Shown: positions 5,885 to 20,681 of the stretch, in pieces | Layout of the letters: every line of letters starts with the position of its first letter | Numbering within the stretch: the first letter of the stretch is position 1 | DNA from: a virus | DNA: 21,115 nt | IMG/VR virus record: IMGVR_UViG_3300021083_000034 | Span: 1 to 21,115 of that record | Reading direction: 5' to 3' (one strand) | Translations under genes and position numbers: made by a program | Notes under the pieces: generated by a model | The model's database searches: none | Told to the model about the DNA's origin: nothing | Seen by the model: the letters and a program-made list of their open reading frames with translations, nothing else

Positions 5885-5892
5885 GGTGATCC

Positions 5893-6321
5893 TTACGCTG
5901 TAGTAGAGGTAGAGACATTGACCTGCTGGCCGGATGCCGTATTGACGGAAGCGGTGACCTGGAAGCGGTCAAGCTGCTGCTGGACGTTGATGTCTCCAAT
6001 CGATGAGACAAGCTCTCCCTGAGAGAACGGTGACGCCTGTCCCTTCTGCGAGGCAGCCTTGACCTTGCTTAGCTGAACCGCCATGTAGTTCCTGATGACC
6101 CTGAGCATCTCGGTCCTGATGAAAGTGGCGGTCGAGGGGTTCGAGGCCGTGCCGATGTAGTTGGCGAACACACTCCCATAGCGGGGGTGGAAGCGATCAG
6201 ATCCGTAGGGGGTGAGAGTGGCGATCTCGATGTCTTGTTCCACTTTAGCAGGTCCCGTAACGGTCGAGAAGGCACCATTAGCCAAGACGAGATCTCCGTT
6301 CTGCACTACTAGTGTGTTCAT
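5893..6321 (-). CDS. Baseplate wedge protein, gp25/gpW-like
   Basis: 142 residues matching the gp25 (GPW_gp25) family, a small baseplate wedge subunit that links the sheath to the J-type wedge protein. The core motif is visible: a hydrophobic helix (KVEQDIEIATLTPYGSDRFHP) followed by RYGSVFANYIG, near residues 27-55, then the helix RTEMLRVIRNYMAVQLSKV. The frame is open further upstream, but the ATG at 6321 is chosen because it overlaps the TGA of the GIY-YIG gene as ATGA and has AAAGGAAG two bases upstream. The upstream extension is antisense-like filler inside the endonuclease gene. It is followed 8 bases later by the J-like gene, the canonical gp25-J order of contractile tails. Confidence 0.9.
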   Translation of the reverse strand: MNTLVVQNGDLVLANGAFSTVTGPAKVEQDIEIATLTPYGSDRFHPRYGSVFANYIGTASNPSTATFIRTEMLRVIRNYMAVQLSKVKAASQKGQASPFSQGELVSSIGDINVQQQLDRFQVTASVNTASGQQVNVSTSTTA

Positions 6322-6887
6322 ATCTTCCTTTGGTGACCAGTTGCTCTGATGTGTTGTCCAAGGGGTCCGGGCCGGGATCGCATTCCGCATTCGCATTCGA
6401 CGGATAGTGATTGCATCGCTGCGCTCATCTTGGCTTTGGAGGCTGCTGTATGTCGGTATCCCTTCGGGCGACCGGTCGTCTTGCCCACGAGCGCCGCTCT
6501 GACGTTCGCTTTGTGCTCTGCTGTCTGTTGGCGCCCCTTCATAGAGGCGCTGATCTTGGCTCGTTCCCGCTCGGGACGTACTCGACCAAGGTTGTCGGGC
6601 CACCCGCCAGGCGGGCGACTGTTCAAGGTATGTCGTGCGTCATGGGTTATGTAGAAGTCATACCAGCGTCGTTCAGCTTCGATGGGGTCGCCATATCCAG
6701 CTTCTACTATGATCTGTTGGAAAGCGTTCTGCCCTAGACTCCTCACTTTGGCCGTCAGTCGTGGTGCGTGACTGTTCGCTCCGCTCAGGTGCTCCTTGAA
6801 CCGACGTTGAGCGCCACGAGTGGTAGATCCCACGTACCAGTATCCTGGTGCAGTGATGAGATAGACTTCGTAGTCGACTGTTCTCAT
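6318..6887 (-). CDS. GIY-YIG homing-type endonuclease with NUMOD3-like repeats
   Basis: 189 residues. The GIY-YIG nuclease core is at about 5-95: VYL at 8-10 stands for GIY and YVG at 18-20 for YIG. The Arg pair R28/R29 precedes F30, H33 follows, the likely catalytic Glu is E72 in EAERRWYD, and N89 is in TLNSRPPGG. Residues about 105-160 contain NUMOD3-like DNA-binding repeats (KISASMKGRQQTAEH, then ALVGKTTGRPKG). The C-terminus has C165-x-C167, H179 and H185, which could form a small zinc finger. Such enzymes make site-specific double-strand breaks and spread into empty alleles. The gene is free-standing, not in an intron or intein that I can see, and separates the spike gene from gp25 in the baseplate cluster. 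Its last codons supply the ribosome-binding site of the gp25-like gene. Its own Shine-Dalgarno is weak. Confidence 0.92.
   Translation of the reverse strand: MRTVDYEVYLITAPGYWYVGSTTRGAQRRFKEHLSGANSHAPRLTAKVRSLGQNAFQQIIVEAGYGDPIEAERRWYDFYITHDARHTLNSRPPGGWPDNLGRVRPERERAKISASMKGRQQTAEHKANVRAALVGKTTGRPKGYRHTAASKAKMSAAMQSLSVECECGMRSRPGPLGQHIRATGHQRKI
6324..6331 (-). promoter_or_regulatory. Shine-Dalgarno of the gp25-like gene inside the GIY-YIG coding end
   Basis: AAAGGAAG lies two bases before the ATG at 6321 (AGGA is four bases from it). It is encoded by the final codons (Gln-Arg-Lys-Ile) of the endonuclease, whose TGA overlaps the ATG. This decides the start of the gp25-like protein. Confidence 0.7.
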
Positions 6888-6932
6888 GATTGATCTCGTT
6901 TATTAGGTGGTCTCAGAAGAGGTCTTGGAGGG

Positions 6933-7916
6933 TTAGGTGGATGAGTCCACGATGAGACCGAGGTTCGCCAGGGCGGTCAGGAGGGAGGCCAGGGCAGCGT
7001 TGCCACCACGAGATCCCGTTACCGTAGGTCGGGTGATGGGGGTAGCGGAGAAGAACCCAACCTTATCACTGGTAGTCGTTCCGATATGAACTTTCCCCGG
7101 CGTGGACCAGGCTGACAGATGGGCCGTCCCCAAGTAGATGGTGCCGAAGATATCCATCCCGGTGGTGCCGTCGATGAATACCCCAGTTTCCGTGGACAGA
7201 GTACCAGTACCAGCAGCTATAGAGATCCCACCTCCACTCTGCACGGAGATAGCTGAAGAAACCCCACCGTATGAACTATGAAGTAGGATGCTATCACCAG
7301 ATCCAGTGGTCTCAATATCAATGCTTCCATTCGAAGCACTGAGATACATCCCCTCTCGCCCATTAGCCGTGATATACAAGACATCAAACGACCCACTGCC
7401 AGACTGAAGAATCGATAGAACCTCAGCACCATCGATGCTCACATTAGCTGCGGCGTCGATGTTGACATCGAGGCCGCTGTTCAGATGGATGTTGCCCAAG
7501 TCATATGATCCAGCACCGTCGCTGGCTGTTTGGATTGTGATATCAGCGCTGCCGAGTTCCTCAATGAGAATACCAGAGGTAGGATACGTTATCCCGTCTA
7601 GAACGGGACCACCAGAGTGAGGGGAATCATCAATGAGAGCGATGCCGTGGCCTGGGGAGGTGTAGTCAGGAAGCTGACCAGCACTACCGGGGTTGTTCAT
7701 GATGGCGGCGAAGGTCCACGGTCCGAGATCCTTCGTGATGAGCCACTGCTCACCTACCGAGGGAGCAGCACCCTTAGCCCGCTGCACGGCGATGGGGATC
7801 TGTCGGCTCACTAGGAACTGGTCGGTGCCGTAGGCGTAGCCGTTGGAGATCTCCTCGATGGTGAAGAGCAACTGATGGAAGCCGAGCGATCCGAAGGAGG
7901 GGTCTCTACCTGTCAT
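6933..7916 (-). CDS. Spike/tail-tip protein with beta-helical body
   Basis: 327 residues. Residues 1-100 are beta-rich and resemble an OB-fold (AVQRAKGAAPSVGEQWLITK, then WTFAAIMNN), as in gpV/gp5-type spike proteins. Residues about 110-265 are a repetitive Gly/Ser/Asp/Ile-rich stretch (NGSIDIETTGSGDSILLHSS), typical of a trimeric beta-helix. The last 45 residues (KVGFFSATPITRPTVTGSRG, then AALASLLTALANLGLI) match a C-terminal motif widespread in phage fibre and tip proteins. The gene is coupled to the hub gene by a TAATG junction, fitting a spike seated on the hub. DNA coding the beta-helix is visibly poorer in GC than the neighbours. Puncturing the host envelope is the inferred role; a minor tail or fibre protein is the alternative. 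Confidence 0.75.
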   Translation of the reverse strand: MTGRDPSFGSLGFHQLLFTIEEISNGYAYGTDQFLVSRQIPIAVQRAKGAAPSVGEQWLITKDLGPWTFAAIMNNPGSAGQLPDYTSPGHGIALIDDSPHSGGPVLDGITYPTSGILIEELGSADITIQTASDGAGSYDLGNIHLNSGLDVNIDAAANVSIDGAEVLSILQSGSGSFDVLYITANGREGMYLSASNGSIDIETTGSGDSILLHSSYGGVSSAISVQSGGGISIAAGTGTLSTETGVFIDGTTGMDIFGTIYLGTAHLSAWSTPGKVHIGTTTSDKVGFFSATPITRPTVTGSRGGNAALASLLTALANLGLIVDSST

Positions 7917-9808
7917 TACGCAGCGCCCGTCTTCGCAAGCCCTAGCAGACCGCCGCTACCATCGGTGCCGAAGGACGACGGAGCCATGATGCCTACCGTG
8001 GTCGAGAAGCCCGCACCGTCCATAAGGTTCCACGAGTGGGTGACCGAGGAGATGTACGCTTGGAAGCCGAACTCGTGGATGCGGAGCAACATGCCGGGGA
8101 AGAGTTCGGGCATGAAGGTGATCGGGACCTCAGCTACGAACTGCTGCGACCAACTGAGCATCCACTGGTGGACGGCGTACCAGAACTCGATCTCGCCCTG
8201 AGCGACCCACGGGATCTGAGAGAACTGCGGTCGGGCGCCGAACTGCTGCATGATCTGCTGATAGGCATCGGCACCGAAGAGACCTGCGTCTCCGTCGCCC
8301 GTGTTGAAGAGAGCTTGGAAGAGGTTCGGGATCTGGATCGTGGCGACACCGTAGGAGTTGTACATGTTGTAGGCCTGCACGGTGCCACCCTCTGCGGACG
8401 GGTCCTCGCCCGAGTCGACACCACTGACCGTCGAGCCGACAGAGAACTGGTGGGTGACAAGCGTCTGGTCCGTCCACGTGATTACGAAGTCCTGAAGCTC
8501 GATGGTCTCAAGGTTCCAGACGGCGGCTGTCCCATAGACCCCGAAGTAGTCGGGGAACCACGAGATGAAGTCCCCGTTGGGAGCCGAGCAGAAGTTGCGG
8601 AGGGCGGTGTTGCAGGCCGACTGGATCGTGTTCATGATGGGGGTGTCATTCATGAGTGAGCGGTAGCCAACTAGCTCGGCACCAACGTAGTCCGGGGCGG
8701 GTGTCGGGTCCCAGTTACCCTGTAGCAACTGGCCATCCCCAGCGGTCCATAGACCTGACTGCGAAGCGCCATTCGTTTGCACCGAGTTCGGCGGAGCGGG
8801 GACATCGAACGGTCCAAATGCGGTGGCGGGCTTGACCGGTGCCCAGGCGATAGCGATCTGACCCGAGTCTCCTGAGATCCCGAGAGCAGTCATAGCGGCG
8901 GCAGAGAGATTGATGGCCCCCTGCGGCTGGCTCTTGTCCATGAAGCCACCCTTGGTAGAGACACAGATGCACTTGCCTGTCCTGGCGTTAGCGACGAGTA
9001 GACGCTGGCCCTGACCGTCCGCACCCCTGAGGTAGTCCTCCGCAGTCTTCTGCTCTGTCGGGGAGACGCCAGGAGCCATGTAGCCCCAGTGCAGGGAGGC
9101 GTCCCACTGACCGAGGGCCGGGTTGATCTGCGCCGTACCAGATAGGTAAGGAAGCTCGGTACCGGGAGGAGCGGAGTTGTCATTGAGGGTCGGGGCTACC
9201 GACGAGCCGACGTTCGTACCGAAGGTGCCACCGATGATGAGGCCACCAAGGTTGTTGATGCTTTGTGAGATTGACGGCTCGACCTCAGACCAGATGTTCG
9301 AGATCCTCGACAAGAAGTCGGAAGGGATGACGCCGATGTGGATCAGGTTAGCCTCCCATCCGATCACCTTCGTGAGGAGGGCGATGATGACTGAAGTCAT
9401 ACCGGCGTCCGGCGTGGAGGACTGGTTGCTGAGGGACGAGATGAGCAAGTTGATCGAGGCAGCTAGACCGGGGTCCCAAAAATGGTAGTAGATCCTCTTC
9501 ATCGTGCACGAGGCCGAGAGGTTCACCGAACAGTTGAAGGTCGAGAAGTAGGGCACGGCATTGAGGTAGCCGGAGAAGGTCTGCATCCACGTCACCCTCT
9601 TCATCTGCACGACGACTCGATCGTTCGGCGTGAAGATACCGACGTACTTGCCGCCTCGACTGCTCAGTGTGAAGTTCAGGCTGTGCATCTGGTTCTCGTT
9701 GAGAGTCATCGAGCCGGACTCGATGTCGTCAGTGACATCGATGATGGTGCCGGTCGAGCGACAGTCGATCGAGATGCGGATGCCGGGGTTGTACAACAAC
9801 GTGGACAC
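7916..9808 (-). CDS. Baseplate/tail hub protein with possible double-psi beta-barrel insert
   Basis: 630 residues from a GTG at 9808. The frame extends to a GTG at 9841, but 9808 is preferred: it overlaps the TAG of the upstream HNH gene as TAGTG and has AAAGGTGGG seven bases upstream. The N-terminal 110 residues are beta-rich (ISIDCRSTGTIIDVTDDIES, KYVGIFTPNDRVVVQMKRV), resembling hub or minor tail proteins that close the tube. At about 240-325 a segment resembles a double-psi beta-barrel of the RlpA/expansin type: GQRLLVANARTGKCICVSTK followed by INLSAAAMTALGISGDSGQI. The Asp usual before LS in that family is Asn here. The C-terminal third (FWYAVHQWMLSWSQQFVAEV, ELFPGMLLRIHEFGFQAYIS) looks like the second hub domain. 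Its position after the tape measure and before the spike fits a hub. Confidence 0.78.
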   Translation of the reverse strand: MSTLLYNPGIRISIDCRSTGTIIDVTDDIESGSMTLNENQMHSLNFTLSSRGGKYVGIFTPNDRVVVQMKRVTWMQTFSGYLNAVPYFSTFNCSVNLSASCTMKRIYYHFWDPGLAASINLLISSLSNQSSTPDAGMTSVIIALLTKVIGWEANLIHIGVIPSDFLSRISNIWSEVEPSISQSINNLGGLIIGGTFGTNVGSSVAPTLNDNSAPPGTELPYLSGTAQINPALGQWDASLHWGYMAPGVSPTEQKTAEDYLRGADGQGQRLLVANARTGKCICVSTKGGFMDKSQPQGAINLSAAAMTALGISGDSGQIAIAWAPVKPATAFGPFDVPAPPNSVQTNGASQSGLWTAGDGQLLQGNWDPTPAPDYVGAELVGYRSLMNDTPIMNTIQSACNTALRNFCSAPNGDFISWFPDYFGVYGTAAVWNLETIELQDFVITWTDQTLVTHQFSVGSTVSGVDSGEDPSAEGGTVQAYNMYNSYGVATIQIPNLFQALFNTGDGDAGLFGADAYQQIMQQFGARPQFSQIPWVAQGEIEFWYAVHQWMLSWSQQFVAEVPITFMPELFPGMLLRIHEFGFQAYISSVTHSWNLMDGAGFSTTVGIMAPSSFGTDGSGGLLGLAKTGAA

Positions 9809-10248
9809 TAGGATTCCCACCTTTCGAGGTAGGCAATGCACTGACGCAATACCACTATGGAGTCATGTGCATCTCCCATCGTCTTGTTGCAACGAGAGCA
9901 GACGAGTGCTCTGATGCACTGACCACACGAGAAGGTGCCAGGACAGCAATCGTGATCGTGATCGACCTGCAATCGTTTCTCCGTTGGTTCAGGGTTTCCG
10001 CAGGACGCACATAGGCCATGCTGCCTCTCGATCATCTCGTTGTATTGTTCGAGAGTTATGCCGTGCTGGCGTAGGCTGCGCCTGAGAACGCCTTCGGGAT
10101 TCTTGCGAGCGTACTCATTACAGTAGGCTCGACTGCACGGCAAGCAACGATTGTTTAAACCATCAGGACGACTCTTATCTTTGCCGAACTCAGTCAACGG
10201 CTTCTCTTGCTTGCACTTCCAACAGAGCTTAGGGACGAGGGTCGACAT
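9808..10248 (-). CDS. HNH endonuclease, recombination endonuclease VII family (copy 2)
   Basis: 146 residues. An N-terminal zinc knuckle is formed by C9/C12 and C35/C38. The endonuclease VII core follows: GITLEQYNEM at 63-72, C80/C83, the catalytic VDHDH at 95-99, C101/C102, C108/C111, then IRALVCSRCNKTMG with C117, C120 and N121. The T4 family counterpart cuts branched DNA; small free-standing phage relatives are often regarded as mobile or homing-like nucleases, and that is the inference here. The gene sits between two tail genes, 14 bases after the upstream TGA. Its TAG overlaps the GTG of the hub gene. It is clearly related to the gene at 19374..19820 but diverged. All metal and catalytic positions look intact, so it is probably active. 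Confidence 0.9.
   Translation of the reverse strand: MSTLVPKLCWKCKQEKPLTEFGKDKSRPDGLNNRCLPCSRAYCNEYARKNPEGVLRRSLRQHGITLEQYNEMIERQHGLCASCGNPEPTEKRLQVDHDHDCCPGTFSCGQCIRALVCSRCNKTMGDAHDSIVVLRQCIAYLERWES
9816..9824 (-). promoter_or_regulatory. Shine-Dalgarno of the hub gene inside the HNH coding end
   Basis: AAAGGTGGG lies seven bases before the GTG at 9808. It is formed by the codons for the conserved HNH C-terminus (Glu-Arg-Trp-Glu). It is the reason for choosing 9808 over 9841 as the hub start. Confidence 0.65.
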
Positions 10249-10262
10249 GGCTTAGGCAGGCC

Positions 10263-10820
10263 TCACTGCGTGGGACTTGACGTCGGATTGACGGTCACTG
10301 GCGCCGGAGGGGCGTCGAAGAGCACTGAGTCGTAGTAGGGTGATGCGCCGTTGTCGAGGGGGTAGAAGCTTGAGTTGGCCGGGCCGGGGTTCGCCGGGGG
10401 CACCCATGAGACTTCGGTCGGAGCGAGAGCGTCGATGGCGCTGACGAAGCTCACGGTCATGGGGTACGTGATGGCGGGCACGTGGTCACCGAAGGACACT
10501 CCGGTCTCGGGGATGCCGACACCGACGAAGCCACGTGACGGAACGACGACGGTCATCGGTGAGATCGCACCATCGGCAGTCGAGGCAGCGAGCATGAAGT
10601 CGCTGAACCAGTTGGCGGCAGCGTTGTAGTTCTCCCACGAGTCGAACTGCATCGAGACGACGAAGTTGTCAGCGTAGACATTGTGGAAGTAGGCAGTCCT
10701 CTGGTGTGCGGACTCGGCCTCCTGAACGCTAGCGGCCACGCCATAGGCGACATGGATCACGTAGAAGGCTGCGTTGCCGAAGCCCGGCGCTATGAAGAGA
10801 CCTCTACCGTCGTCAGCCAT
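10263..10820 (-). CDS. Tail/baseplate protein of unknown function
   Basis: 185 residues, not firmly recognised. The first 130 residues are compact and mixed alpha/beta: VIHVAYGVAASVQEAESAHQ, then FVVSMQFDSWENYNAAANWF at about 53-72, resembling a motif in tail-tip proteins of actinobacterial phages, then VPSRGFVGVGIPE. The C-terminal 45 residues are Pro/Ser/Asn-rich and probably flexible. There is no signal peptide or membrane segment. The ATG overlaps the end of the preceding 67-codon gene by 8 bases; the Shine-Dalgarno is weak, so translational coupling is likely. Lying between the tape measure and the hub, it is probably part of the tail tip or central baseplate. Confidence 0.8.
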   Translation of the reverse strand: MADDGRGLFIAPGFGNAAFYVIHVAYGVAASVQEAESAHQRTAYFHNVYADNFVVSMQFDSWENYNAAANWFSDFMLAASTADGAISPMTVVVPSRGFVGVGIPETGVSFGDHVPAITYPMTVSFVSAIDALAPTEVSWVPPANPGPANSSFYPLDNGASPYYDSVLFDAPPAPVTVNPTSSPTQ

Positions 10821-11621: not shown

Positions 11622-11623
11622 GA

Positions 11624-14095
11624 CTATCCGCCCGAGAAGGCATTCTGGTAAGGAGTGACTCCGGTCGGCGGAGTGTTGATGGTGCCGTAGTTGTTGCCGA
11701 TCTGTGCAGCGCCAGAGGTCGCAACTTGCACCAACTGAGCGGCTGCCGGGGTGAGGCTGATGGTGACGGTACCGTCGCCCTTCTTGTTACTGGATGTACT
11801 ACTCTTGGGAGTGAGGGAGGTCTTGTGTTGGGCAGCCCACTTCGATACCGACTGTCCATTGATGGTGCCCTTACCCGCCATGATGAGTGCAGCGGTGCGG
11901 GGATCTCCGAGAGCGGCCAGTACGGATTCTTTGTCATTACCCGTGACCCCGAAGCCGGAACCAGATACGAAGTCTTTCGAGCCGTGAGCCAATAGGGATG
12001 CAGCAATGCCTGCCCCCGCAGAGTTGACATGGTGAGTCTGGATATAGTTATCGATGTTAGACTGCGCACCTGATAGCTGATGGTTACGAGTCATCGAAGA
12101 CCATGTACCGGTCATGTCTCCGGCTTGGCGGTTGCCAGGTCGCAGACCGGCGATCTGCTGGTTGATGGATGTCTCAGCGTTATTCTTGTTCACATAGGTC
12201 GGAAGAGAGTTGGGGTTGGCCTTGAGCATGGCATAAGCATCCCACTGACCATTGAGACTGACTCCCTGAGTCGAGATCCCAGCAGCGTTGAGAATGCCGG
12301 GGAGCATCTCATCTAGAACTCCGGCATTCCTTGACTGTGTAGCGAACTCACTGTGCACTCCTGACTGGTTCTTGAGAGCCATCGAAGCCAAGTGCTGCAC
12401 GTTGGGAATACCCGCTCCGAATACACCGAGCCTCTGCTGTTCTACGGTGGCCTGTGCACGGGATGCATACGCACCTGATGGATCACTAGCGATCTTGTTC
12501 TCGTAGGTCGCAAGCGAGACCCCAATAGAGGCTGCTGCCTGTGCGTTCGAAGCAAGTCCGAACTGGACACCGGCCCCGCTCTTGCCGAGTGCGTTCGTCA
12601 TCATCTGTGCCCCACCGGCAAGGCTAGCCGCACCCTGTGTCGACATACCCGAAGCAATCCCAGTGGAGTACATAGCAGAGAAGTTCTGACGAGCCTGCTC
12701 GGTGTTGACCGAAGCTGCGGCGGCGCTGTTGGTGACGGCATCGAGAGTAGCAGCCAAGGCTGACAGGTTAGCGTTACCAGCCTTCACCGATGTGCTCACG
12801 AGAGCCAGTGAGTCGGCAATACTCATACCCATACTAGAGTAGTTTGATGTAATGAAGTTGAGTGCGTTAGACCTATCTCCACCTTGCAGTCCGAGATCGG
12901 TAACCCCCGAGAATGCTTGGTTAGCCATGCCCATACTCATGGTTCCCATTTGGGTTAGACCGAATCCGAGACCCTGAGCACGAGTGCCATAGGCGGAGAA
13001 GTTTGAGCCGCCGATCTGAGACTGGATGGCGGCATTGGTCGCACGCTGTGATTCCATCTCGTGCAATCCCAGGACGGCGGCAGTGACAGGAATCGCAGCT
13101 ATCCCCACGCCAGCCATGACTCCACCGCCGAGCGTAGCTCCTATAGCATCAGCGGCACCGCCACCCTCCGCTAGTGTACTAAGACCGGCGCCCAAGCCTC
13201 TTGCGTCTGAGACCATACCACCAGCCTTGGCGAGTTCGTATTCTTCCTTCGACATGTCTCCGGCAAGGTACTTGGTCGTGTAAGGAGCCTGCTGCTCCTT
13301 AGTCATCTCCTCCCACGGAGTCCTCTGGTACTTGCTCGTATAGCTGGTCGGGAGCGTCTTCTGAAGTCGCTGAGCGAGGGACTGAGTGATGCCACGCACG
13401 CTCGGGTGCTGCGAGAGAGACTGAACCTCGTGAGCCTGCTGGCCACCACGGTTCTCGACGGCCTCGACACCGAGCACGTTCGAGGTGATGTTCCTGAGTC
13501 GTTCGAGGGTCTTATCGTTGCCGATCTCGGGAGGTGCTGCGGGTTGCCATGATGGGTTGTCGGCAGGAGATGCGGGGACCTGGTTGGGAACAGGAGCAGC
13601 AGTAGGCCCACCCATGCTGCTCTGAATCGAGGTGAAGGACGGGTTGGTCATCTCCGGTGGCATCGATCCGAACGAAGGGTTGAACTGAGGCGTTGCGTTG
13701 GCAGCAGAGCCGTAGCTCGCACCAGTCGCCTGCGAGATGGCGGCAGCTACGTTGGCTGAGGTGGTGTTCGACCCGAAGAGTTGGGGGACATTGTTCGGGA
13801 CCGGAGGTGCGGCCTCGAAGCCCTTGTCCGTACCGCCGAGCATCGAGGAGACTCGCTGCGCCATGATGCCGATGTCCGAGAGGGTCTTGATTGTCTGCTG
13901 TGCGACGGCTCGCATGTCCGACAGCGTGCCCTCGAATGCAGAGGCGAGGTCGACGTTGCCGCCGAAGGAACTAGGGATGCCCTGTGGCGAGCCAGGTGCC
14001 GGAGGTGCGTAGTCTCCCTCGACCGAAGTCATCGGCCCCCGGTTGAACGGAGAAGGAGTGGGGCCAGAGGCGGATGGGTACTGGGGATCAGGCAT
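11624..14095 (-). CDS. Tail tape measure protein
   Basis: 823 residues, the longest gene between the chaperones and the baseplate, the canonical tape measure position. The N-terminal 190 residues are Pro/Ser/Gly-rich with one short helical part (about 45-88). A hydrophobic Gly/Ala segment lies at about 318-344 (GGVMAGVGIAAIPVTAAVLG), a common tape measure feature that may act in the host membrane at ejection. Residues 350-560 are Ala/Gly/Ser/Gln-rich and mostly helical. The C-terminus ends in a Lys/Ser linker (TPKSSTSSNKKGDG) and a small beta/Gly tail. No lysozyme or peptidase motif is seen. By the usual rule of about 1.5 angstrom per residue, the tail would be near 120 nm. The ATG at 14095 overlaps the deformylase gene by 8 bases and has only a weak purine tract. 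Confidence 0.87.
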   Translation of the reverse strand: MPDPQYPSASGPTPSPFNRGPMTSVEGDYAPPAPGSPQGIPSSFGGNVDLASAFEGTLSDMRAVAQQTIKTLSDIGIMAQRVSSMLGGTDKGFEAAPPVPNNVPQLFGSNTTSANVAAAISQATGASYGSAANATPQFNPSFGSMPPEMTNPSFTSIQSSMGGPTAAPVPNQVPASPADNPSWQPAAPPEIGNDKTLERLRNITSNVLGVEAVENRGGQQAHEVQSLSQHPSVRGITQSLAQRLQKTLPTSYTSKYQRTPWEEMTKEQQAPYTTKYLAGDMSKEEYELAKAGGMVSDARGLGAGLSTLAEGGGAADAIGATLGGGVMAGVGIAAIPVTAAVLGLHEMESQRATNAAIQSQIGGSNFSAYGTRAQGLGFGLTQMGTMSMGMANQAFSGVTDLGLQGGDRSNALNFITSNYSSMGMSIADSLALVSTSVKAGNANLSALAATLDAVTNSAAAASVNTEQARQNFSAMYSTGIASGMSTQGAASLAGGAQMMTNALGKSGAGVQFGLASNAQAAASIGVSLATYENKIASDPSGAYASRAQATVEQQRLGVFGAGIPNVQHLASMALKNQSGVHSEFATQSRNAGVLDEMLPGILNAAGISTQGVSLNGQWDAYAMLKANPNSLPTYVNKNNAETSINQQIAGLRPGNRQAGDMTGTWSSMTRNHQLSGAQSNIDNYIQTHHVNSAGAGIAASLLAHGSKDFVSGSGFGVTGNDKESVLAALGDPRTAALIMAGKGTINGQSVSKWAAQHKTSLTPKSSTSSNKKGDGTVTISLTPAAAQLVQVATSGAAQIGNNYGTINTPPTGVTPYQNAFSGG

Positions 14096-14582
14096 GGGCG
14101 CTTCTTAGTGTTCGTAGGGCAGCGTCCTTCTTCTTGCCCGGTGGTAGCTTGTCGATGAAGAGCTTCCCCTGTAGGTGGTCATACTCGTGCTGGAAGACAC
14201 GACCGAGGAACTCGGTGGCCTCGATGCGGAGGTCACGACCGTCGAGATCCTGCCCCGTGAGGAGAACGTGGTTCGGGCGCACGACGCCTGCGTAGACCCC
14301 CGGCAGGCTGAGGCACCCCTCGGTGTAATCCCACTTTCCTCCGAGCTTCACGTCGAGATGTGGGTTTATGACGGTGATCGGCTCGTGCGTGGCGGGGTCC
14401 CAGTAGACGAACATCGCCACGGAGAAGCCCACCTGGTTGGCAGCGATAGCAGCAGCATGGTCGCCGTAGGATTCGAGGGTCGACAGCATGAGGTCGTTGA
14501 CCCGGTGCACCTCGGCGTCGATCTCTACTACGGGGACAGCCTGCTCTCGCAGCACGGGGTCTCCGTAGAGGACGGCGGTCAT
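14088..14582 (-). CDS. def: Peptide deformylase
   Basis: 164 residues with all three deformylase motifs. Motif 1 is AAIAANQVG at 44-52 with Q50 (the family norm is GxGLAAPQ, so the Gly and Pro are replaced). Motif 2 is EGCLSLPG at 88-95 with metal ligand C90. Motif 3 is QHEYDHLQG at 131-139 with H132, E133 and H136. The enzyme removes the formyl group from the starting Met of new proteins. The length is near the bacterial norm and the C-terminal Lys-rich helix is short. The ATG overlaps the TGA of the frameshifted chaperone as ATGA and no good Shine-Dalgarno is visible, so translation probably depends on coupling. Sitting between the chaperone and tape measure genes is unusual; the catalytic residues suggest it is active. 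Confidence 0.95.
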   Translation of the reverse strand: MTAVLYGDPVLREQAVPVVEIDAEVHRVNDLMLSTLESYGDHAAAIAANQVGFSVAMFVYWDPATHEPITVINPHLDVKLGGKWDYTEGCLSLPGVYAGVVRPNHVLLTGQDLDGRDLRIEATEFLGRVFQHEYDHLQGKLFIDKLPPGKKKDAALRTLRSAHA

Positions 14583-15471
14583 CGGTGCCGGTCCGGTACG
14601 TGGACACCCATCGAGGCGAGGAAGTCCTCGACATCCTCGTCCTTTATCATGTTCTTGACCACGAGGGCTGCCTCGTCCGGCACCTCTTCGAGATCCGCCA
14701 AGTCGTCGGGCGGGAAGAGGTCGGGGTACATCTCGGGAGCGAGACCAATCGGGTCCTCCGAGATGAGGACGTTCTTGAGTGCGTCGATGCGGCCTTCCAT
14801 ATCGGCCTTCGAGTCCAAGTGGATCATGACCGTGTTGGCGAACTGCTGTACCGTGGAGAGCGAGCGACCCTGCAACACACCCTGACGATCCGCCAGGCGG
14901 ATCATCTGCTCAACCCAGGGGTCGATACCCTCGACCCCTACGCTTTTCCCAGTGCATCGTGGACGGCCTTCACCCCGGCGTCGAGGAGGAGATACTCTTC
15001 GTAGAGCTTGTCCAATGTCCATGGGTACCAGTGTCGCTTGATGTAGTCGAACTTCGACTGGATCAACGACACGTCGTCGCTGATCGGGATGGGTAGGGGT
15101 TGCCCGTCGACCGTCTCAACGATGGCGGCGAGCAGAAGGGTTTGGTACGCCTTCACGTCAGCCACGCTAGTGTTGTATGGCTCGTGAAGCTGGCCGATCT
15201 CTAGGATCTCATCAATCCGTGGTGTGCGGATGACGAAGGTGTGACCCAACCACTTGAACGTCCGACTGACCTTCCCAATGAAGAGAAGGCCCTCGAACGC
15301 AAGGCGGTACTTCGGGTCAAACTCTGGCAGTGCCACTTCCTCGTCGTCCGTCCCGGTTGGTTCGCCCGTTGGTGCGGAGCTTGGCTCAACGCTAGGGTCG
15401 GTAGATGTGGGATCGACAACGGCTGGTGGTACGAATACCTCGTCCTCGGGTACTTCGGTGTCCTCAGGCAT
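14579..15471 (-). CDS. Tail assembly chaperone, -1 frameshift product (gpGT-like)
   Basis: The second chaperone frame has no good start of its own and continues the first one by a -1 shift. Ribosomes read 15471 to 14944 in frame 0 (176 codons), re-read base 14944 and go on to the TGA at 14579-14581 (121 more codons), giving 297 residues. After the shared Gly-Lys the fusion reads Ser-Val-Gly-Val-Glu-Gly. The added domain has a helical part (DPWVEQMIRLADRQGVLQGR) and a strongly acidic part (DPIGLAPEMYPDLFPPDDLA, then an Asp/Glu-rich helix). In lambda, the equivalent G and GT proteins bind tape measure and tube subunits during assembly and are absent from the virion. Location between tube and tape measure, the slippery heptamer and a downstream hairpin support this strongly. 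Confidence 0.9.
14916..14940 (-). promoter_or_regulatory. Frameshift-stimulating hairpin
   Basis: Beginning 3 to 4 bases after the slippery site, AGGGGTCGA (14939-14931) pairs perfectly with TCGACCCCT (14925-14917) across a five-base loop GGGTA; a U-G pair can extend it to 10 pairs. The frame 0 TAG is built into the base of the stem. The spacing and strength fit a pausing element; a pseudoknot with bases further 3' is possible but not shown. Confidence 0.85.
14938..15471 (-). CDS. Tail assembly chaperone, frame 0 product (gpG-like)
   Basis: 177 residues ending at TAG 14938-14940, 3 bases after the slippery site. The first 50 residues are acidic, Pro/Ser/Thr-rich and probably disordered. The folded part (52-175) includes YRLAFEGLLFIGKVSRTFKW, FVIRTPRIDEILEIGQLHEP and a helical C-terminus (FDYIKRHWYPWTLDKLYEEY). 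The ATG at 15471 is preceded by AGAGGA about seven bases upstream, and lies 21 bases after the tube stop. It is the more abundant of the two chaperone products, if the frameshift is inefficient as in other phages. Confidence 0.88.
   Translation of the reverse strand: MPEDTEVPEDEVFVPPAVVDPTSTDPSVEPSSAPTGEPTGTDDEEVALPEFDPKYRLAFEGLLFIGKVSRTFKWLGHTFVIRTPRIDEILEIGQLHEPYNTSVADVKAYQTLLLAAIVETVDGQPLPIPISDDVSLIQSKFDYIKRHWYPWTLDKLYEEYLLLDAGVKAVHDALGKA
14944..14950 (-). promoter_or_regulatory. Slippery heptamer for -1 programmed frameshift
   Basis: The minus strand reads G GGA AAA in the chaperone frame, a perfect X XXY YYZ heptamer like lambda GGGAAAG. It is followed by GCG and the frame 0 stop TAG. 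A -1 slip joins the chaperone frame exactly to the next open frame. Confidence 0.9.
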
Positions 15472-15492
15472 GTGGTGTCCTCTCTAGGGAGC

Positions 15493-16002
15493 TTACGTTA
15501 CGGGGTTGAGTCCTGCCCCGACGAACGGGGTCTTGGTCGTGTAGAGCAGGCCGATCTGTCGAGCGACAGACAAGCTACCGACCTGCACGCTCTCGGTGTC
15601 ATCGATAGAGACGACGGTGCAGTTGTTGTACACCTCGCCACGCCAGGTCGACTGACCGGGCGGCTTGATGATGAACTGACAGGTGATGGTGCCCTGTGCG
15701 GCCATGGCGGCGAAGACATCAGCGAGGTTGTTCGTGCCAGCTAGGCCCTGAAGCTGCTCCCAGGCCTTTGCGTTCCAAAGCTCACGGACGACGATGTTGA
15801 TCGAGCCGGGGTTCAGCACTCGACCCGTGACGATCTCGGCTGCGTAGTTCAAGCCAAGAGGCTGGATCGGCTCCCATCCACCGCCACCGCCCATGACTGT
15901 CTGGCCGGAGTCAGTGATGGACTCTAGCCATGCAAGGGACTGGTTGTTGTAGATGAAGGTCGAGAAGCCGGAACCGACTACTCTGACTTGAGTCTTAGCC
16001 AT
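15493..16002 (-). CDS. Tail tube protein
   Basis: 169 residues, directly after the sheath and before the chaperones, the usual tube position. The sequence is beta-rich with a Gly-rich loop (VMGGGGGWEPIQPLG, about 36-50). A tube-like pattern follows: EIVTGRVLNPGSINIVVREL, then the helix NLADVFAAMAAQGTI and strands ITCQFIIKPPG and NNCTVVSIDDTESVQVGSLS, as in tube proteins of contractile tails that stack as hexamers around the DNA channel. The start ATG is 10 bases after the sheath TAA, with AAAGG upstream. No signal or membrane segment is present. Confidence 0.88.
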   Translation of the reverse strand: MAKTQVRVVGSGFSTFIYNNQSLAWLESITDSGQTVMGGGGGWEPIQPLGLNYAAEIVTGRVLNPGSINIVVRELWNAKAWEQLQGLAGTNNLADVFAAMAAQGTITCQFIIKPPGQSTWRGEVYNNCTVVSIDDTESVQVGSLSVARQIGLLYTTKTPFVGAGLNPVT

Positions 16003-16012
16003 GCTCTAACCT

Positions 16013-17464
16013 TTACGATGTCTGACCGGTTGCGGTGCCCGCAGACACAGCGCCGGTTGTGGTGTTGACGGAGAAGATGAAGGTCACGTAGTTGAGCGGG
16101 TAGCTAGGCTGCCACTGGAAGGTGACCTGAATGGTCGTCGGCAAGCTGTTCAACTGCTGAGCGACGACACCCTGGTAGCTCTCGATGATGCCAAGCTGGA
16201 CGCACTGCTCCAAGATGCCGATCGTGAGGGCCTGAAGGTTGACGATGGTGTTCTCATCGATCGGGTTACCGATGAGGGCAGCCTGCTCGACAGCGCCTTC
16301 GAGAAGCTCGACCATGGCGTCCTGCTCACGAACGAGCGAGGCCTCCTGGTTGTAGATCGAGGACGGGTCGGTGGTGGTACCGTGTCGACACCAGAGCACA
16401 CCGGCTCGGGAGATCTCGGCCACGGCCACGCCTGCGGCGCCGTACTGGTTCTTGAGGGCAGTCGTCATCGTCTGGAATACGTTCGACGGGATGCCCGTGA
16501 AGTTCTTGATGTTGCGACGAGTGAGGCCCTGCTGAGGCAGGTTGCCAGCGAAGATACCGGCATAGGCAGCGGCAAGATAGTAGCCACCTACGACGAGTGT
16601 CGAGTTGGTGTATCCGTTGTAGTAGTTCATGGCGAATGGCCACGCCTCGACTACTCTCTTGTAGTCGATGGCGTCGGCAATCGTATCGGGAGCGAAATCC
16701 GTGTCGGTGCCAACCTCGAAGCCCAGGAGGCCGACTCGGAGGATGTCATTCTGATTCTCGTCATTGAGCAAGAAGGTGGCAAGATCCTGACCGACGTTGA
16801 TGGCATCCTCGGTAGCTAGGTTGACCGGCAGCGGGACCACGAGGTTGACATTCGTGAGGACTTCGAGGAAGGCGTAGGCGTCCGTCAGGTCGGCTCGTAG
16901 GACCGTGGCGTTCGGCGTGGCGACGAGCACGAGGGTCTGTGCACCGTTGGTGAAGGCGAACTGAGCAGCCAAAGAGATCGGGGAGGTGATCTCACCAGTC
17001 ACGATGTCGATGCCGTTGCCGTAGAGCGACTGCACCTGAGCAAGGTTGGTGCAGATCGAAGGCGTGAGGTAGTCGTAGTCGGTGTACTGGTAGGAGACCC
17101 GGACGGTCTGAGTGTCGGTGAAGACAGTCGAGCCGGAACCCCAGGTGATCGTGGTTGTGGTGTCCTGGGAATGGCCATCCGTAGCGTCGGTGGTTACGAG
17201 GAGGTAGTCGGTGTTGACGACGCCTACCTGGGTACCGTCGAGGGAGGTCACGACCACAGAGTCGGCGTTGATGCCCAACTGCGTCAGGTCGACGGGGGTC
17301 GTGCTATCGAACTGCACGTTCTCAGCGAACGTGCGGTAGCCGATGCCTGGGCCTACGAGGGCGACCTGGTTGACGGTGTACAGAGATTGGGGCGCCACCG
17401 GACTTGGTGTCGCCTCCCAGTACGTGCCAGGAACCACGTATTCGCTGAAGTTGGGTAGCGTCAT
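16013..17464 (-). CDS. Tail sheath protein
   Basis: 483 residues forming the contractile sheath around the tube. The N-terminus (MTLPNFSEYVVPGTYWEATP) and an early Val/Ala/Gly strand (VNQVALVGPGIGYRT) are typical. A beta insertion domain at about 65-125 ends in RVSYQYTDYDYLTP (122-135), a common sheath motif. It is followed by VQSLYGNG and SPISLAAQFAFTNGAQTLVL. The C-terminal domain ends with QVTFQWQPSYPLNYVTFIFS (about 446-465), the conserved strand region that exchanges between sheath subunits. Upstream is a 61-base gap, the largest in the operon, with AAGGAG about 10 bases before the ATG, a stronger site than most here and suitable for a high-copy protein. The tube gene follows after 10 bases. 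Confidence 0.93.
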   Translation of the reverse strand: MTLPNFSEYVVPGTYWEATPSPVAPQSLYTVNQVALVGPGIGYRTFAENVQFDSTTPVDLTQLGINADSVVVTSLDGTQVGVVNTDYLLVTTDATDGHSQDTTTTITWGSGSTVFTDTQTVRVSYQYTDYDYLTPSICTNLAQVQSLYGNGIDIVTGEITSPISLAAQFAFTNGAQTLVLVATPNATVLRADLTDAYAFLEVLTNVNLVVPLPVNLATEDAINVGQDLATFLLNDENQNDILRVGLLGFEVGTDTDFAPDTIADAIDYKRVVEAWPFAMNYYNGYTNSTLVVGGYYLAAAYAGIFAGNLPQQGLTRRNIKNFTGIPSNVFQTMTTALKNQYGAAGVAVAEISRAGVLWCRHGTTTDPSSIYNQEASLVREQDAMVELLEGAVEQAALIGNPIDENTIVNLQALTIGILEQCVQLGIIESYQGVVAQQLNSLPTTIQVTFQWQPSYPLNYVTFIFSVNTTTGAVSAGTATGQTS

Positions 17465-17525
17465 ATCGAAGAAACTCCTTGCTCACCTCTTCGGAGGACT
17501 GTGAGCCTGATTGACAGGACCAGAT

Positions 17526-17909
17526 CTAGAGAGCGGCAGCAACTACGAGGAACGTGTTGAAGTCAATCGACTGTCCCACGGCTCCATTGCCGATCCATTC
17601 GTAGGTCCAGAGGGCAGGCAGGGCGGTCGTATCGAGTAGGGCGGTGTAGAGGCCGGTGGCCACCTTGGTGATGAAGTGAGCACCCCCGGAGAGGGTCCAG
17701 AGAGACACATCGTTGGTCGGATTCGAGATCGAGGGGTTGGTCACGAACTGGGCGCCGGAGCCACTCTCGTACACGTAGATGACCGGGATGGCTAGGCCTT
17801 CCTGGGTGAACTTGAGGATAACGTGGGTCGGGTCGATGTAGTCGTTGGTGTCCGTGTCCACGAAGTTGGACGTGACCTTGACGAGAGTGCCTGCTTTGTA
17901 GGTAGCCAT
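17526..17909 (-). CDS. Small virion protein upstream of sheath (127 aa)
   Basis: 127 residues starting MATYKAGTLVKV. The frame is open further upstream, but that part is Arg/Ser/Pro-rich filler over the neighbouring genes; the ATG at 17909 has AAGGA five bases upstream, overlapping the stop of the preceding small gene. The product is beta-rich (DPTHVILKFTQEGLAIPVIY, then TGLYTALLDTTALPALWTYE), suggesting an Ig-like or neck/tail accessory fold. No catalytic motif is visible. Position between the tail terminator and the sheath suggests a head-tail or sheath-associated virion component. The family is not recognised. Confidence 0.8.
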   Translation of the reverse strand: MATYKAGTLVKVTSNFVDTDTNDYIDPTHVILKFTQEGLAIPVIYVYESGSGAQFVTNPSISNPTNDVSLWTLSGGAHFITKVATGLYTALLDTTALPALWTYEWIGNGAVGQSIDFNTFLVVAAAL

Positions 17910-17917
17910 TACATTCC

Positions 17918-18043
17918 TTAGGGAGTCGTCTGAGAGAGCGCCACAGTGTTGTCCTCGTCCTTGAGGGTGAGATCCGTGACCTCTGTGGCATCGAGTAGGA
18001 GCTTCGTAGTTGGCTCGTCTGAGACGGTCACTTTGTAGGTCAT
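17918..18043 (-). CDS. Very small protein (41 aa)
   Basis: 41 residues, MTYKVTVSDEP to the end LSQTTP. The ATG overlaps the TAA of the tail terminator-like gene (TAATG), and its own stop codon lies inside the Shine-Dalgarno region of the next gene. The sequence is Thr/Asp/Leu-rich and likely one beta sheet. The tight coupling on both sides is the main evidence that it is translated. Function is not recognised. Confidence 0.65.
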   Translation of the reverse strand: MTYKVTVSDEPTTKLLLDATEVTDLTLKDEDNTVALSQTTP

Positions 18044-18687
18044 TACGGGTTCGGGTACTGGAAGGTGGTGGTCGGGCCGGTCGGGTTTCCGTAGCTGTCC
18101 TCGACGGTGGCGACCCACTGGACGTGTTCGAGGAGGACGAACTCGCCTGTCGAGAGATCTGAGGCGAACTCACCGATGACCGCTGAGGCCGTGGTGATCT
18201 CGTAGAGGATGTCGTCAGAACCCCATGGGGTACCTGAGGTGGCCGACTTCCCTCGCTGAGCGATCTGGTCGAAGTCGATCTGAGCGGCGATCCACGGGTT
18301 GTCCTCGATGGTCTGGCGGAACCTGAAGTACAGAGGGTTCAACTGGGAGAAGGCAATCATCTTGACCACCTCATCGAAGAGGCGGTCTCGTTCGAGTGAG
18401 GTCAACGCCATGATGGTGAATGTGGCGTACCCCTGAAAGAGCCACTTCTTGTACTGATGCACGACATTGTTCTCGTCGGGTGGTGTGTACAGGTACACGT
18501 CACCGATACCCGCCGTCTGGACGGGGAGGGTCGGTTCGAAGTCGACCCAAATGGCCGGGTAGTTCTCTCGGAGGATCGGGAACTCCGGGGAGATATGGAT
18601 GTTCTGAAACTCGGGGACCGGGAAGTTGGAGTCGAACGTGAGTCGCACTGCCTGCGTCAGTAGAGTGACAAGCTCCTTCATATACAT
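18043..18687 (-). CDS. Tail terminator/completion-like protein
   Basis: 214 residues. An N-terminal helix (MKELVTLLTQAVRLTF) and an alpha/beta core with YPAIWVDFEP, FQGYATFTIMALTSLERDRL and FDEVVKMIAFS resemble tail terminators and related tail-completion proteins, which cap the tube and join it to the head. The ATG at 18687 shares a base with the upstream TAA (TAATG), with GAGGAG about 10 bases upstream; an ATG two codons later is possible. The location before sheath and tube fits. The call rests on position and fold impression rather than a diagnostic motif. Confidence 0.68.
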   Translation of the reverse strand: MYMKELVTLLTQAVRLTFDSNFPVPEFQNIHISPEFPILRENYPAIWVDFEPTLPVQTAGIGDVYLYTPPDENNVVHQYKKWLFQGYATFTIMALTSLERDRLFDEVVKMIAFSQLNPLYFRFRQTIEDNPWIAAQIDFDQIAQRGKSATSGTPWGSDDILYEITTASAVIGEFASDLSTGEFVLLEHVQWVATVEDSYGNPTGPTTTFQYPNP

Positions 18688-19373
18688 TAGGCGATTAGCT
18701 CCTCTTGTCCGCTCGGGTGCTTGGCGATGATCTTGGTGATGATGAGACCCGCACCGAGTGCCGCCGTCTGAATGCCGTGTTGCATGAAGTGGAGTCCATT
18801 GAGTCCGGGGTTGCGCCAGCGGACACCGACGTTCGGTGACGAGATGGCACCGGCTGCCTTGCCCGGCGACGTGTACGGGTGTCGAGCTTCTCGAAGAGCG
18901 ATGCGACCGGGAGCGCCAGGGTAGGAGGCGGGGACGATGCGCTTGTTCCCGTACTTGGTGGTGATGACCTTGCGCTGTCCCTTGGCGGCGGCACGACGGA
19001 AGATCAGTACCTCGACCACTCCGTCCGGGCGCACTCGGGTCTCAGCCTTCGGGTTCTTGATGCGCTCGCTGCCGGTCTGGTCCTTGATCCACATGGGGAT
19101 GGTCTTACCCGCCAGGTTCGACATCGTGAAGGGCTGTGCCCCGTGCTCTTGGAACCAGGCGTACTGGTCGACCCACCGGATGCCGAAGTAGCCTCTACCT
19201 GAGTACGGCATAAGGCGGCTGGCCATGCCGGACTCACCCACAGCGAGGTAGCCCTTGGGAGCGTTGAGGCGAGCCTGCTGGACGGCGAGGATGGCAAGCT
19301 GGTGGGCACGGAAGGCATCGAGGCCTCGAACCTTGGCATACATCGCCTCGGGAATGTCATAACGGCTTGCCAC
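18687..19373 (-). CDS. Head-tail joining / tail completion protein (gp10-like)
   Basis: 228 residues from a GTG at 19373, immediately after the TAA of the HNH gene. The N-terminal half includes the helix FRAHQLAILAVQQARLNAPK and GIRWVDQYAWFQEHGAQPFT; a beta part follows (VRPDGVVEVLIFRRAAAKGQ). The WFQEHG and later HFMQHGIQTA segments recall HK97 gp10-type neck proteins, which act in head-tail joining, but the identity is only suggested. The C-terminus is basic and Gly-rich. Its ribosome-binding site lies in the last codons of the endonuclease gene. It is followed by the tail terminator-like gene through a one-base overlap. Confidence 0.65.
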   Translation of the reverse strand: MASRYDIPEAMYAKVRGLDAFRAHQLAILAVQQARLNAPKGYLAVGESGMASRLMPYSGRGYFGIRWVDQYAWFQEHGAQPFTMSNLAGKTIPMWIKDQTGSERIKNPKAETRVRPDGVVEVLIFRRAAAKGQRKVITTKYGNKRIVPASYPGAPGRIALREARHPYTSPGKAAGAISSPNVGVRWRNPGLNGLHFMQHGIQTAALGAGLIITKIIAKHPSGQEELIA

Positions 19374-19820
19374 TTACGATCCCCATCCTTCTAGGTAGCG
19401 TACTGCCTCAATGAGACGATCAGTGTCGTCCTCAGCGTTTCCGATCATGTGGTTACAGTTCGCACAGAGGAGGCCTCGAACACAATCACCGCAGGCCTTA
19501 CCACCGGGGCAGCACGAGTGGTCATGATCGATGGCCATACGGATCACCACACCCTTACGAGTAGCGGTCTCGGGTTGTCCGCAGGAGGCACAGACCCCAC
19601 CTTGCGCTTCGAACATCTCATCGTATCGCTCCATGGTGATCCCGTAGCGAGTGATGTTGTTTCTCTGTTGAGGCGCCGGATTGATCTTGTATCGTTCCTT
19701 GCCGTAGTCACTCATGCACATCTTGCACCGACATTGCACACCCTTGGCGAGGCGCTTGTCAGCGTAGAAGTCCGTCGTAGGCTTCTCGATACCACAGGCG
19801 ACACAGATCTTGGTCGCCAT
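19374..19820 (-). CDS. HNH endonuclease, recombination endonuclease VII family (copy 1)
   Basis: 148 residues from the ATG at 19820 (MATKICVACG), one base after the stop of the neck gene and with GAGGGG upstream; the longer frame starting inside that gene is rejected. The zinc knuckle is C6/C9 and C32/C35. The core has YGITMERYDEM at 59-69, C77/C80, the catalytic AIDHDH at 96-101, C103/C104, C110/C113, and VRGLLCANCNHMIG with C119, C122 and N123, matching the T4 endonuclease VII pattern of LDHDH and RGLLCNLCN. It is probably a free-standing mobile endonuclease cutting phage DNA. It lies between two neck genes. The C-terminus (YLEGWGS) matches that of copy 2 (YLERWES). Confidence 0.9.
   Translation of the reverse strand: MATKICVACGIEKPTTDFYADKRLAKGVQCRCKMCMSDYGKERYKINPAPQQRNNITRYGITMERYDEMFEAQGGVCASCGQPETATRKGVVIRMAIDHDHSCCPGGKACGDCVRGLLCANCNHMIGNAEDDTDRLIEAVRYLEGWGS
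19381..19391 (-). promoter_or_regulatory. Shine-Dalgarno of the neck gene inside the HNH coding end
   Basis: GAAGGATGGGG ends seven bases before the GTG at 19373 and is formed by the codons for Glu-Gly-Trp-Gly. The G-run sits at the same distance from the start as in the other HNH/hub junction. Confidence 0.6.
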
Positions 19821-19821
19821 G

Positions 19822-20640: not shown

Positions 20641-20662
20641 CTCACCCCTTAGGCAGGAGATC

Positions 20663-20673: not shown

Positions 20674-20681
20674 AGAGGGTC

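Follow-up and report, generated by a model that had tools for sequence, protein, structure and literature searches.

Endonuclease genes at phage gene junctions carry the next gene's ribosome-binding site in their terminal codons: a putative handover on insertion

Three endonuclease genes and their junctions

The window is the whole stretch of viral DNA analysed here (21,115 nucleotides). All its genes lie on the minus strand, and it carries three endonuclease genes, each followed without a gap by another gene. The features of these junctions, which we call A, B and C, are as follows.

19374..19820, minus: EndoVII-A, endonuclease VII family (PF02945), 148 aa (Pfam 6.6e-22; PHROG 2633 2.1e-34)
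19827..19834, minus: Shine-Dalgarno sequence (SD) of EndoVII-A itself, CGAGGGGA, within the terminal codons of the preceding gene 19822-20640
19382..19391, minus: SD of the next gene within the EndoVII-A terminal codons, GAAGGATGGG, spacing 8
18687..19373, minus: displaced downstream gene A, PHROG 2819, function unknown, GTG start abutting the EndoVII-A stop
9808..10248, minus: EndoVII-B, endonuclease VII family, 146 aa (Pfam 5.6e-20)
10237..10248, minus: first codons of EndoVII-B (MSTL), residues identical to the first codons of gene B (9797-9808)
9816..9824, minus: SD of the next gene within the EndoVII-B terminal codons, AAAGGTGGG, spacing 7
7916..9808, minus: displaced tail gene B, PHROG 2810, GTG start, one-base overlap with the EndoVII-B stop (common G of TAG and GTG)
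6318..6887, minus: GIY-YIG/NUMOD3 endonuclease gene, 189 aa, identified by profile matches
6325..6331, minus: SD of the next gene within the GIY-YIG gene's terminal codons, AAAGGAA, spacing 3
5893..6321, minus: displaced baseplate gene C, PHROG 2669, start ATG and GIY-YIG stop combined in ATGA

The two endonuclease VII genes scored 77.7 (EndoVII-A) and 71.5 bits (EndoVII-B) against PF02945, which is above the curated Pfam cut-off of 23.6. Their translations contain IDHDH/VDHDH (Asp-His) and CANCN/CSRCN (Asn after CxxC), residues that we take to be catalytic by comparison with the T4 enzyme. The third gene, for which very few relatives were found, combines the GIY-YIG domain and the NUMOD3 motif expected of a GIY-YIG/NUMOD3 homing endonuclease; its GIY-YIG score of 22.2 bits is just under the cut-off of 22.6, and NUMOD3 reached 21.8 bits (cut-off 20.4) and PHROG 314 1.2e-14.

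At junctions B and C, the endonucleases are optional between conserved genes. The related phages L082 and L083, whose tail genes share 73-87% protein identity with those of the window phage, lack both EndoVII-B and the GIY-YIG gene; the latter is also missing in L084 and is present in the near-identical L086. L082 and L083 in turn have different endonucleases at two further junctions, both of which are empty in the window.

14579..14585, minus: ATGA overlap before the peptide deformylase gene; L083 has another GIY-YIG gene there (905-1504)
5885..5892, minus: L082 has a GIY-YIG gene there (9400-9963) and L083 a truncated 59-aa endonuclease VII

No empty allele of the EndoVII-A junction was found among the relatives searched, and no near DNA relative of the window phage among named phages. 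These gene contents suggest that the window endonucleases are probably free-standing homing endonucleases, which would move by cleavage.

The preliminary description had claimed that all three endonuclease tails spell an SD and that each of their stops abuts or overlaps the start that follows, and the sequence reads in this way. EndoVII-A, which lies between genes 19822-20640 and 18687-19373, ends in CTA GAA GGA TGG GGA TCG TAA with the GTG of the latter gene directly after it; EndoVII-B ends in CTC GAA AGG TGG GAA TCC TAG and the GIY-YIG gene in CAC CAA AGG AAG ATA TGA. A common seven-base spacing had been proposed for the first two genes (the HNH copies of that description), and since the measured values are 8 and 7 nt, this is right to within one base. 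The 3-nt spacing at the GIY-YIG site is short, which speaks against the explanation that we favour below. Duplex energies with the anti-SD ACCUCCUUA were -8.4 (EndoVII-A), -7.7 (EndoVII-B) and -5.6 kcal/mol (GIY-YIG).

Inside the window, the SDs at endonuclease junctions exceed chance weakly. An SD of -5 or better was present at 3/3 endonuclease junctions and at 3/9 other touching junctions (one-sided Fisher p about 0.09), and the non-endonuclease genes 18687-19373 and 19822-20640 likewise bear the next gene's SD in their terminal codons. When the three tails were recoded synonymously with the codon usage of the window, an equal or better SD resulted in 33%, 13% and 12% of cases. Thus, the SDs in the window follow for the most part from the amino acids, and no single tail was significant in this test.

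Matched empty and occupied alleles

The SD that precedes EndoVII-A (CGAGGGGA) is probably the older resident site of this junction, which would now start the endonuclease. At junction C, the site of the empty alleles is a noncoding CACCTAAGG. Tracts of local divergence are clear in the T7-like cases, and the relatives in the window family are too diverged for the same comparison.

It is in T7-like phages that retention of the left site, together with its replacement on the right, is clearest. At the gene 13/14 junction, the empty allele of T3 and KPP-5 reads AGT AGG AGG TAA CT directly before ATG, and the gene 14 site of T3 (AGGAGG) sits inside the terminal codons of gene 13. In phiYeO3-12, whose gene 14 is 98.8% identical to that of KPP-5 and 96.5% to that of T3, the old site is retained to the left of an endonuclease and now precedes its TTG start (ACA AGG AGG AAC CC); on the right side, the terminal codons of the endonuclease form a new site before the ATG of gene 14 (CTA AGA GGA GAA TAA TT). 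K1F is likewise empty at this junction and EcoDS1 is occupied, with GAG GTG as the terminal SD codons of its gene 13.5. The 11/12 junction of Klebsiella phages has AAGGAGGACCAA before ATG when empty. In vB_KpnP_23, the 120 nt to the left of the endonuclease are identical to the empty allele, and the right side reads TAT CTG GAG GTA CAC A before ATG. KN4-1 and yong1 show the same handover with other endonucleases, as do HNH genes at 2.5/3 and 18.5/19, so that it is found across T7-like junctions with several endonucleases of two families. At the level of sequence, these alleles establish presence or absence of the gene, that the left site has been retained and that a replacement stands on the right; both sites would be used in translation.

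The preliminary description had regarded endonuclease-free relatives with the same site as evidence against its proposal of a portable 3' end, and such relatives exist in part. A site is present at the empty junctions, often in the terminal codons of the previous gene; its bases differ from those in the occupied alleles, and the old site is usually retained upstream, where it would come to serve the endonuclease.

Every occupied allele looked at for the 11/12 junction has recoded first codons of gene 12. In vB_KpnP_23, 6/30 nt of the gene 12 start are changed, the protein is unchanged and the flanks are identical. KN1-1, which is empty, has the recoded 5' end as well. At another locus (L130), the start of the next gene is copied over 20 codons at the endonuclease's own start. 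Because of the gene 12 recoding and the L130 copy, we considered that some free-standing endonucleases might bring a full replacement 5' end for their target gene, in which the ribosome site and the start codon are followed by first codons with synonymous changes that escape the endonuclease's own cleavage, with the original 5' end fused to the endonuclease. Such a natural 'recoded rescue' element seems unlikely to us at present.

Survey of endonuclease VII genes and alternative explanations

We surveyed 110 endonuclease VII genes, using other genes of the same contigs as controls and leaving out chromosomal endonuclease VII genes of actinomycetes. At touching junctions, the tail SD was no more frequent than in the controls (22/31 vs 99/171, p=0.23; a second p-value was 0.40), and the enrichment predicted for other copies is therefore absent. 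An apparent excess in the first 80 loci (13/16 vs 66/113, p=0.09) was gone when more loci were included. Synonymous codon choice in the terminal codons leans to the SD (Stouffer p=2e-6, 32 genes), as expected if these codons were conserved beyond protein need; however, ordinary genes show an equally strong bias (endonuclease vs control p=0.12). The tail SD was stronger in touching endonuclease VII genes than in those without a nearby downstream start (-5.57 vs -3.18 kcal/mol, p=4e-4), and genes without a close downstream start lack an SD tail. On the whole, the terminal SD is real and probably functions as a variant of known translational coupling that is not specific to the family.

Two further candidates were rejected. 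Tyr-Leu plus three codons was weak as a family-wide SD (p=0.08). Similarity between the 5' ends of the endonuclease and the next gene was strong for the whole set (0/500 shuffles), but few cases carry this signal, and it is slightly in excess in control pairs as well. EndoVII-A and the GIY-YIG gene of L082 have no 5'-end similarity to the next gene. The MSTL match between the EndoVII-B and gene B starts (p about 0.01 relative to 492 other N-termini) is suggestive of a possible 5'-end duplication.

The survey bears directly on the explanation that endonucleases are not special here: wherever a stop abuts the following start, the upstream gene has to hold its neighbour's SD in its terminal codons, whatever it encodes, and the three window cases would thus reflect only operon density. 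The similar rate and codon bias of the same-contig controls favour it, as does the general presence of the SD in the upstream reading frame of overlapping genes (PMC6728339), and we give it even odds. It leaves the handover undescribed, since occupied alleles have the old site upstream and a second one in the tail, whereas empty alleles have one.

We regard it as doubtful that the endonuclease frame simply runs into an older site of the resident gene, which would then be the terminal SD, so that the mobile gene brought nothing. The right side of EcoDS1 (GGAGGTGAACC before ATGTG) does match the empty PRF-SP4/EPr2 allele (GGAGGTGAACC before GTGTG), that of KN4-1 (GGAGGACCAA before ATG) agrees with the empty allele, the tail of the window GIY-YIG gene (CACCAAAGG) is similar to the empty-allele site of junction C, and the endonuclease frame at 11/12 extends about 35 nt into gene 12. 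However, sites flank the endonuclease on both sides, so the resident site must at least have been duplicated, and in phiYeO3-12 and KpnP_23 the right site is unlike the empty one and lies in codons past the conserved Tyr-Leu. Chance resemblance of Glu, Gly, Arg and Trp codons, in which endonuclease VII C-termini are rich, to SDs fits the recoded window tails (P 0.33, 0.13, 0.12) and is very improbable, since the absence of the site in endonucleases without a following start and the codon preference over 32 cases largely refute it.

As a whole, the data are best explained by a mobile endonuclease that takes the resident site and replaces it for the displaced gene with its own terminal codons (probability about 0.78). 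According to this handover model, free-standing, probably homing, endonuclease genes would insert between the closely packed genes of a phage tail operon; the resident ribosome-binding site would remain on the left and start the endonuclease, and the terminal codons would give a second site at the correct distance from the touching or overlapping start of the displaced gene. That gene would be started by ribosomes finishing the endonuclease or binding the internal site, which amounts to ordinary translational coupling with an intragenic SD, put to use by the mobile gene so that it does no harm. In endonuclease VII, the site often lies just past the conserved C-terminal Tyr-Leu, where Glu/Gly-Gly codons readily spell GGAGG, so it may be kept by selection at each junction and not as a fixed family property. 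Of the portable 3' end initially proposed, the supply of the displaced gene's site by the inserted gene's terminal codons is upheld by matched alleles in this phage family and in T7-like phages; its distinctive, conserved nature is not, as other genes of the same contigs show neither a lower rate at touching junctions nor a weaker codon bias, and endonuclease VII genes with no start close by lack the site.

Comparison with known systems

Translational coupling by termination-reinitiation is known for overlapping genes (Huber et al. 2019, PMC6728339). As in that work, the endonuclease gene pairs of the window have a touching or overlapping stop and start, with the downstream SD in the terminal codons of the upstream frame. 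The upstream gene of those pairs is a permanent partner, whereas in the present case it is mobile and optional, and appears to have replaced an older site. An SD in terminal codons is ordinary for tightly packed genes, and the putative handover by a mobile gene is readable from matched empty and occupied phages. Our literature search found no paper on ribosome-site handover by a mobile endonuclease.

F-CphI is a free-standing homing endonuclease with the endonuclease VII motif that acts on a psbA intron site (PMC6083498). It shares the catalytic family and the free-standing state with EndoVII-A and EndoVII-B; it differs in its intron target. In Hafnia phage Ca, a 397-bp HNH endonuclease insert between the lysis and terminase genes segregates within one stock (PMC8861465). 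This gene is HNH and not endonuclease VII, and in the part of that paper considered here its authors do not discuss a ribosome site. The tail of the Hafnia phage HNH gene (vB_HpaA_yong1, locus L200) bears TTGGAGGGACTAT before the ATG of the terminase.

If the handover operates as proposed, a selfish gene could enter a packed essential operon without silencing what lies downstream, with the resident site taken and a replacement given, and this can be tested in laboratory strains with T7-like phages whose empty and occupied alleles are matched. The seg and mob genes of T4 are likewise free-standing homing endonucleases that occur optionally between conserved genes of the phage. Some of them overlap the gene upstream (mobE, UAAUGA), and their coding regions contain promoters for the downstream genes that they displaced, which favours retention of the endonuclease (review PMC2988022). 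The T4 case concerns transcription, and the present one would be its translational counterpart at the endonuclease 3' end: the endonuclease would become harder to lose, since inexact deletions would take the ribosome site of the displaced gene with them, much as with the promoters embedded in the T4 endonucleases.

Endonuclease-free alleles in the family of the window phage

The window is a 21,115-base IMG/VR virus fragment whose minus strand encodes a contractile-tail operon, and its distant relatives are actinobacterial phages of the Myrna/E3 type (30-35% identity for the tail gene 7916-9808). It carries two genes of the endonuclease VII family (EndoVII-A, 19374-19820; EndoVII-B, 9808-10248) and one GIY-YIG/NUMOD3 gene (6318-6887), whose 3' ends are called junctions A, B and C. 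The sequence at all three junctions agreed with the preliminary description, and the Shine-Dalgarno (SD) sites gave duplex energies of -8.4, -7.7 and -5.6 kcal/mol at spacings of 8, 7 and 3 nt from the start. At two other touching junctions of the window, where the stop adjoins or overlaps the next start, the last codons of the previous gene also hold a site (18687-19373 to the next gene; 19822-20640 to EndoVII-A), and several further touching junctions are free of such a site. Window 1-7786 (minus-strand positions 13330-21115) is matched by a second metagenome contig (L086, 3300021076), in which the GIY-YIG gene is likewise present; the identity is 99.95% over 7.8 kb.

EndoVII-B and the GIY-YIG gene are absent from junctions B and C in two related contigs, L082 and L083, the tail proteins of which are 73-87% identical. 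At junction B of these empty alleles, the last codons of the preceding gene are rich in purines, and the stop overlaps the start (GGA GAA GGC TAATG in L083, AAG AAG CCG AAG TAATG in L082). In the window, this ending is lost from the preceding gene and the last codons of EndoVII-B supply GAAAGGTGGGAA. In the empty alleles, junction C holds a CACCTAAGG site that is not coding, and a similar CACCAAAGG is read in the window as the last codons of the GIY-YIG gene. The preliminary description had the endonucleases bring the site of the next gene with them; the empty alleles of the relatives also carry a site at the junction, with similar bases at C and in the last codons of the preceding gene at B. 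We found no relative covering junction A.

Other endonucleases occupy two other junctions in L082 and L083:
L083: GIY-YIG gene before the deformylase gene
L082: GIY-YIG gene before the baseplate gene
L083:9322-9500: endonuclease VII remnant of 59 aa, in the place of the baseplate-gene GIY-YIG of L082 (PF02945 positions 47-80)

These differences in presence and place between relatives indicate that the endonuclease set is optional. At the baseplate junction, one endonuclease may have replaced another. The remnant starts with MGYK, and so does the unrelated GIY-YIG gene of L082 at this junction.

The window also has a peptide deformylase gene within the tail operon (14088-14582, minus strand; PF01327, 5.3e-38), placed between the tape measure gene and two overlapping frames that follow the tube gene (14938-15471 and 14579-15022, minus strand). 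The first frame ends with CTGGGAAAAGCG, which is kept in L082 and L083, and the pair looks like tail assembly chaperones with a programmed -1 frameshift (GGGAAAA).

Probable exchange of ribosome sites in T7-like phages

T7-like phages offer pairs of empty and occupied alleles that hardly differ outside the insert. In the empty 13/14 junction (T3, KPP-5), gene 13 ends AGT AGG AGG TAA CT, followed by the ATG of gene 14. In phiYeO3-12, ACA AGG AGG AAC CC is kept before endonuclease 13.5, the last codons of which (CTA AGA GGA GAA TAA TT) stand directly before gene 14; the gene 14 side is 98.8% (KPP-5) and 96.5% (T3) identical to phiYeO3-12. At 11/12, a joined-flank query from vB_KpnP_23 matched empty Klebsiella phages as one unbroken piece. 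Its left flank is identical to empty alleles over 120 nt, AAGGAGGACCAAATGG included, and its right side reads TAT CTG GAG GTA CAC A|ATG. The same two-site pattern was seen at 11/12 with two other endonuclease VII genes (KN4-1, yong1), at 13/14 in two more endonuclease VII lineages (EcoDS1 and another in vB_KpnP_23), and for HNH genes at 2.5/3 and 18.5/19. In several cases the right-hand bases equal the site of the empty allele (EcoDS1, GGAGGTGAACC; KN4-1, GGAGGACCAA); they differ in others. This identity suggests that duplication of the resident site, which is then read as codons, is one route to a tail site.

One flank of the insert shows a short divergence tract. Of the 18 differences over 544 nt, 6 lie in the opening 30 nt of gene 12, all six synonymous (p=2e-4), with none in the 180 nt directly left and none in the 90 nt directly beyond. 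At 13/14, 18 of 42 differences are concentrated in the final 90 nt of gene 13, and most of these are synonymous (p=2e-9). The recoded gene 12 start occurs in 17 Klebsiella phage records, 12 of them occupied (redundant records); the common start occurs in 325, with none occupied among the 60 matches listed. The tract can be explained by co-conversion from another phage or by mutagenic repair, both described for divergence flanking homing elements (PMC2988022; PMC5378118), and it can also reflect target immunity. KN1-1 (L204) and IME321 (MH587638) are endonuclease-free and carry the recoded start otherwise seen with an endonuclease; they are possibly cured, resistant alleles.

N-termini of endonucleases resemble those of the downstream genes more than in shuffled pairs (0/500 shuffles as high). 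The clear case is L130:1596-2764, an endonuclease VII gene in which about 20 codons from the start of the following gene recur in recoded form (MALTWEKHPVDGPFATEIR vs MSLTWDKHPVDGPFAVEIR). Likeness is suggestive for EndoVII-B and gene B (MSTL, p about 0.01) and for the GIY-YIG/deformylase pair of L083 (IEA, p about 0.005).

Tail sites in endonucleases and in ordinary genes

From viral contigs and bacterial genomes we gathered 122 endonuclease VII loci, 110 after removal of near-duplicates; in metagenomic loci the gene starts were assigned mechanically, and SD sites were scored on duplex energy alone. L143 and L147, from an actinomycete genome (G003), are two tandem endonuclease VII domains that share a single open frame of 719 codons. 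A coding SD of -5 kcal/mol or below was present in 22/31 endonuclease VII genes touching a downstream start vs 99/171 other touching pairs of the same contigs, which is no excess (p=0.23, kinship ignored), and the energies did not differ either (p=0.40). Tail sites go with the junction and not with the endonuclease family, because endonucleases with no start close behind have no site (-3.18 vs -5.57 kcal/mol in touching ones, p=4e-4).

Judged against the codon usage of each contig, the terminal codons of 32 touching endonucleases, taken without SD preselection, were SD-like beyond protein need (Stouffer p=2e-6); this is the test proposed in the preliminary description. The same was true for 189 ordinary touching genes, and the two groups did not differ (p=0.12); tested one by one, the three window tails were not significant. 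When all endonucleases were pooled, the observed SD was stronger (p=0.003), but we give this value no weight since the pool includes named phages picked for inspection. Public-collection records are redundant, and all tests were computed without phylogenetic relatedness. The idea of a portable 3' end is supported in part: tail codons carry a replacement site in occupied alleles, but a 3' end special to endonucleases is not supported.

Proposed working and known systems

Most likely, judging from the paired alleles, the incoming endonuclease captures the resident site for ribosome binding, and the codons at its own 3' end provide a new one for the displaced gene. The sequences themselves show where the endonucleases are present or absent, and show both sites. 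Since its stop touches the next start, translation of the two genes would be coupled. Both sites would then be used by ribosomes, and cleavage-driven homing presumably spreads these genes.

Homing endonucleases occur among endonuclease VII proteins (PMC6083498), and an endonuclease insert at 18.5/19 segregates within one stock of Hafnia phage Ca (PMC8861465). In T4, promoters of displaced genes lie within the endonuclease genes (PMC2988022), and for overlapping genes it is a known principle that the downstream gene has its SD inside the upstream frame (PMC6728339). In the literature searched, we found no description of a ribosome-site handover by a mobile gene. Such a handover is a variant of known translational coupling and not a new kind of system.
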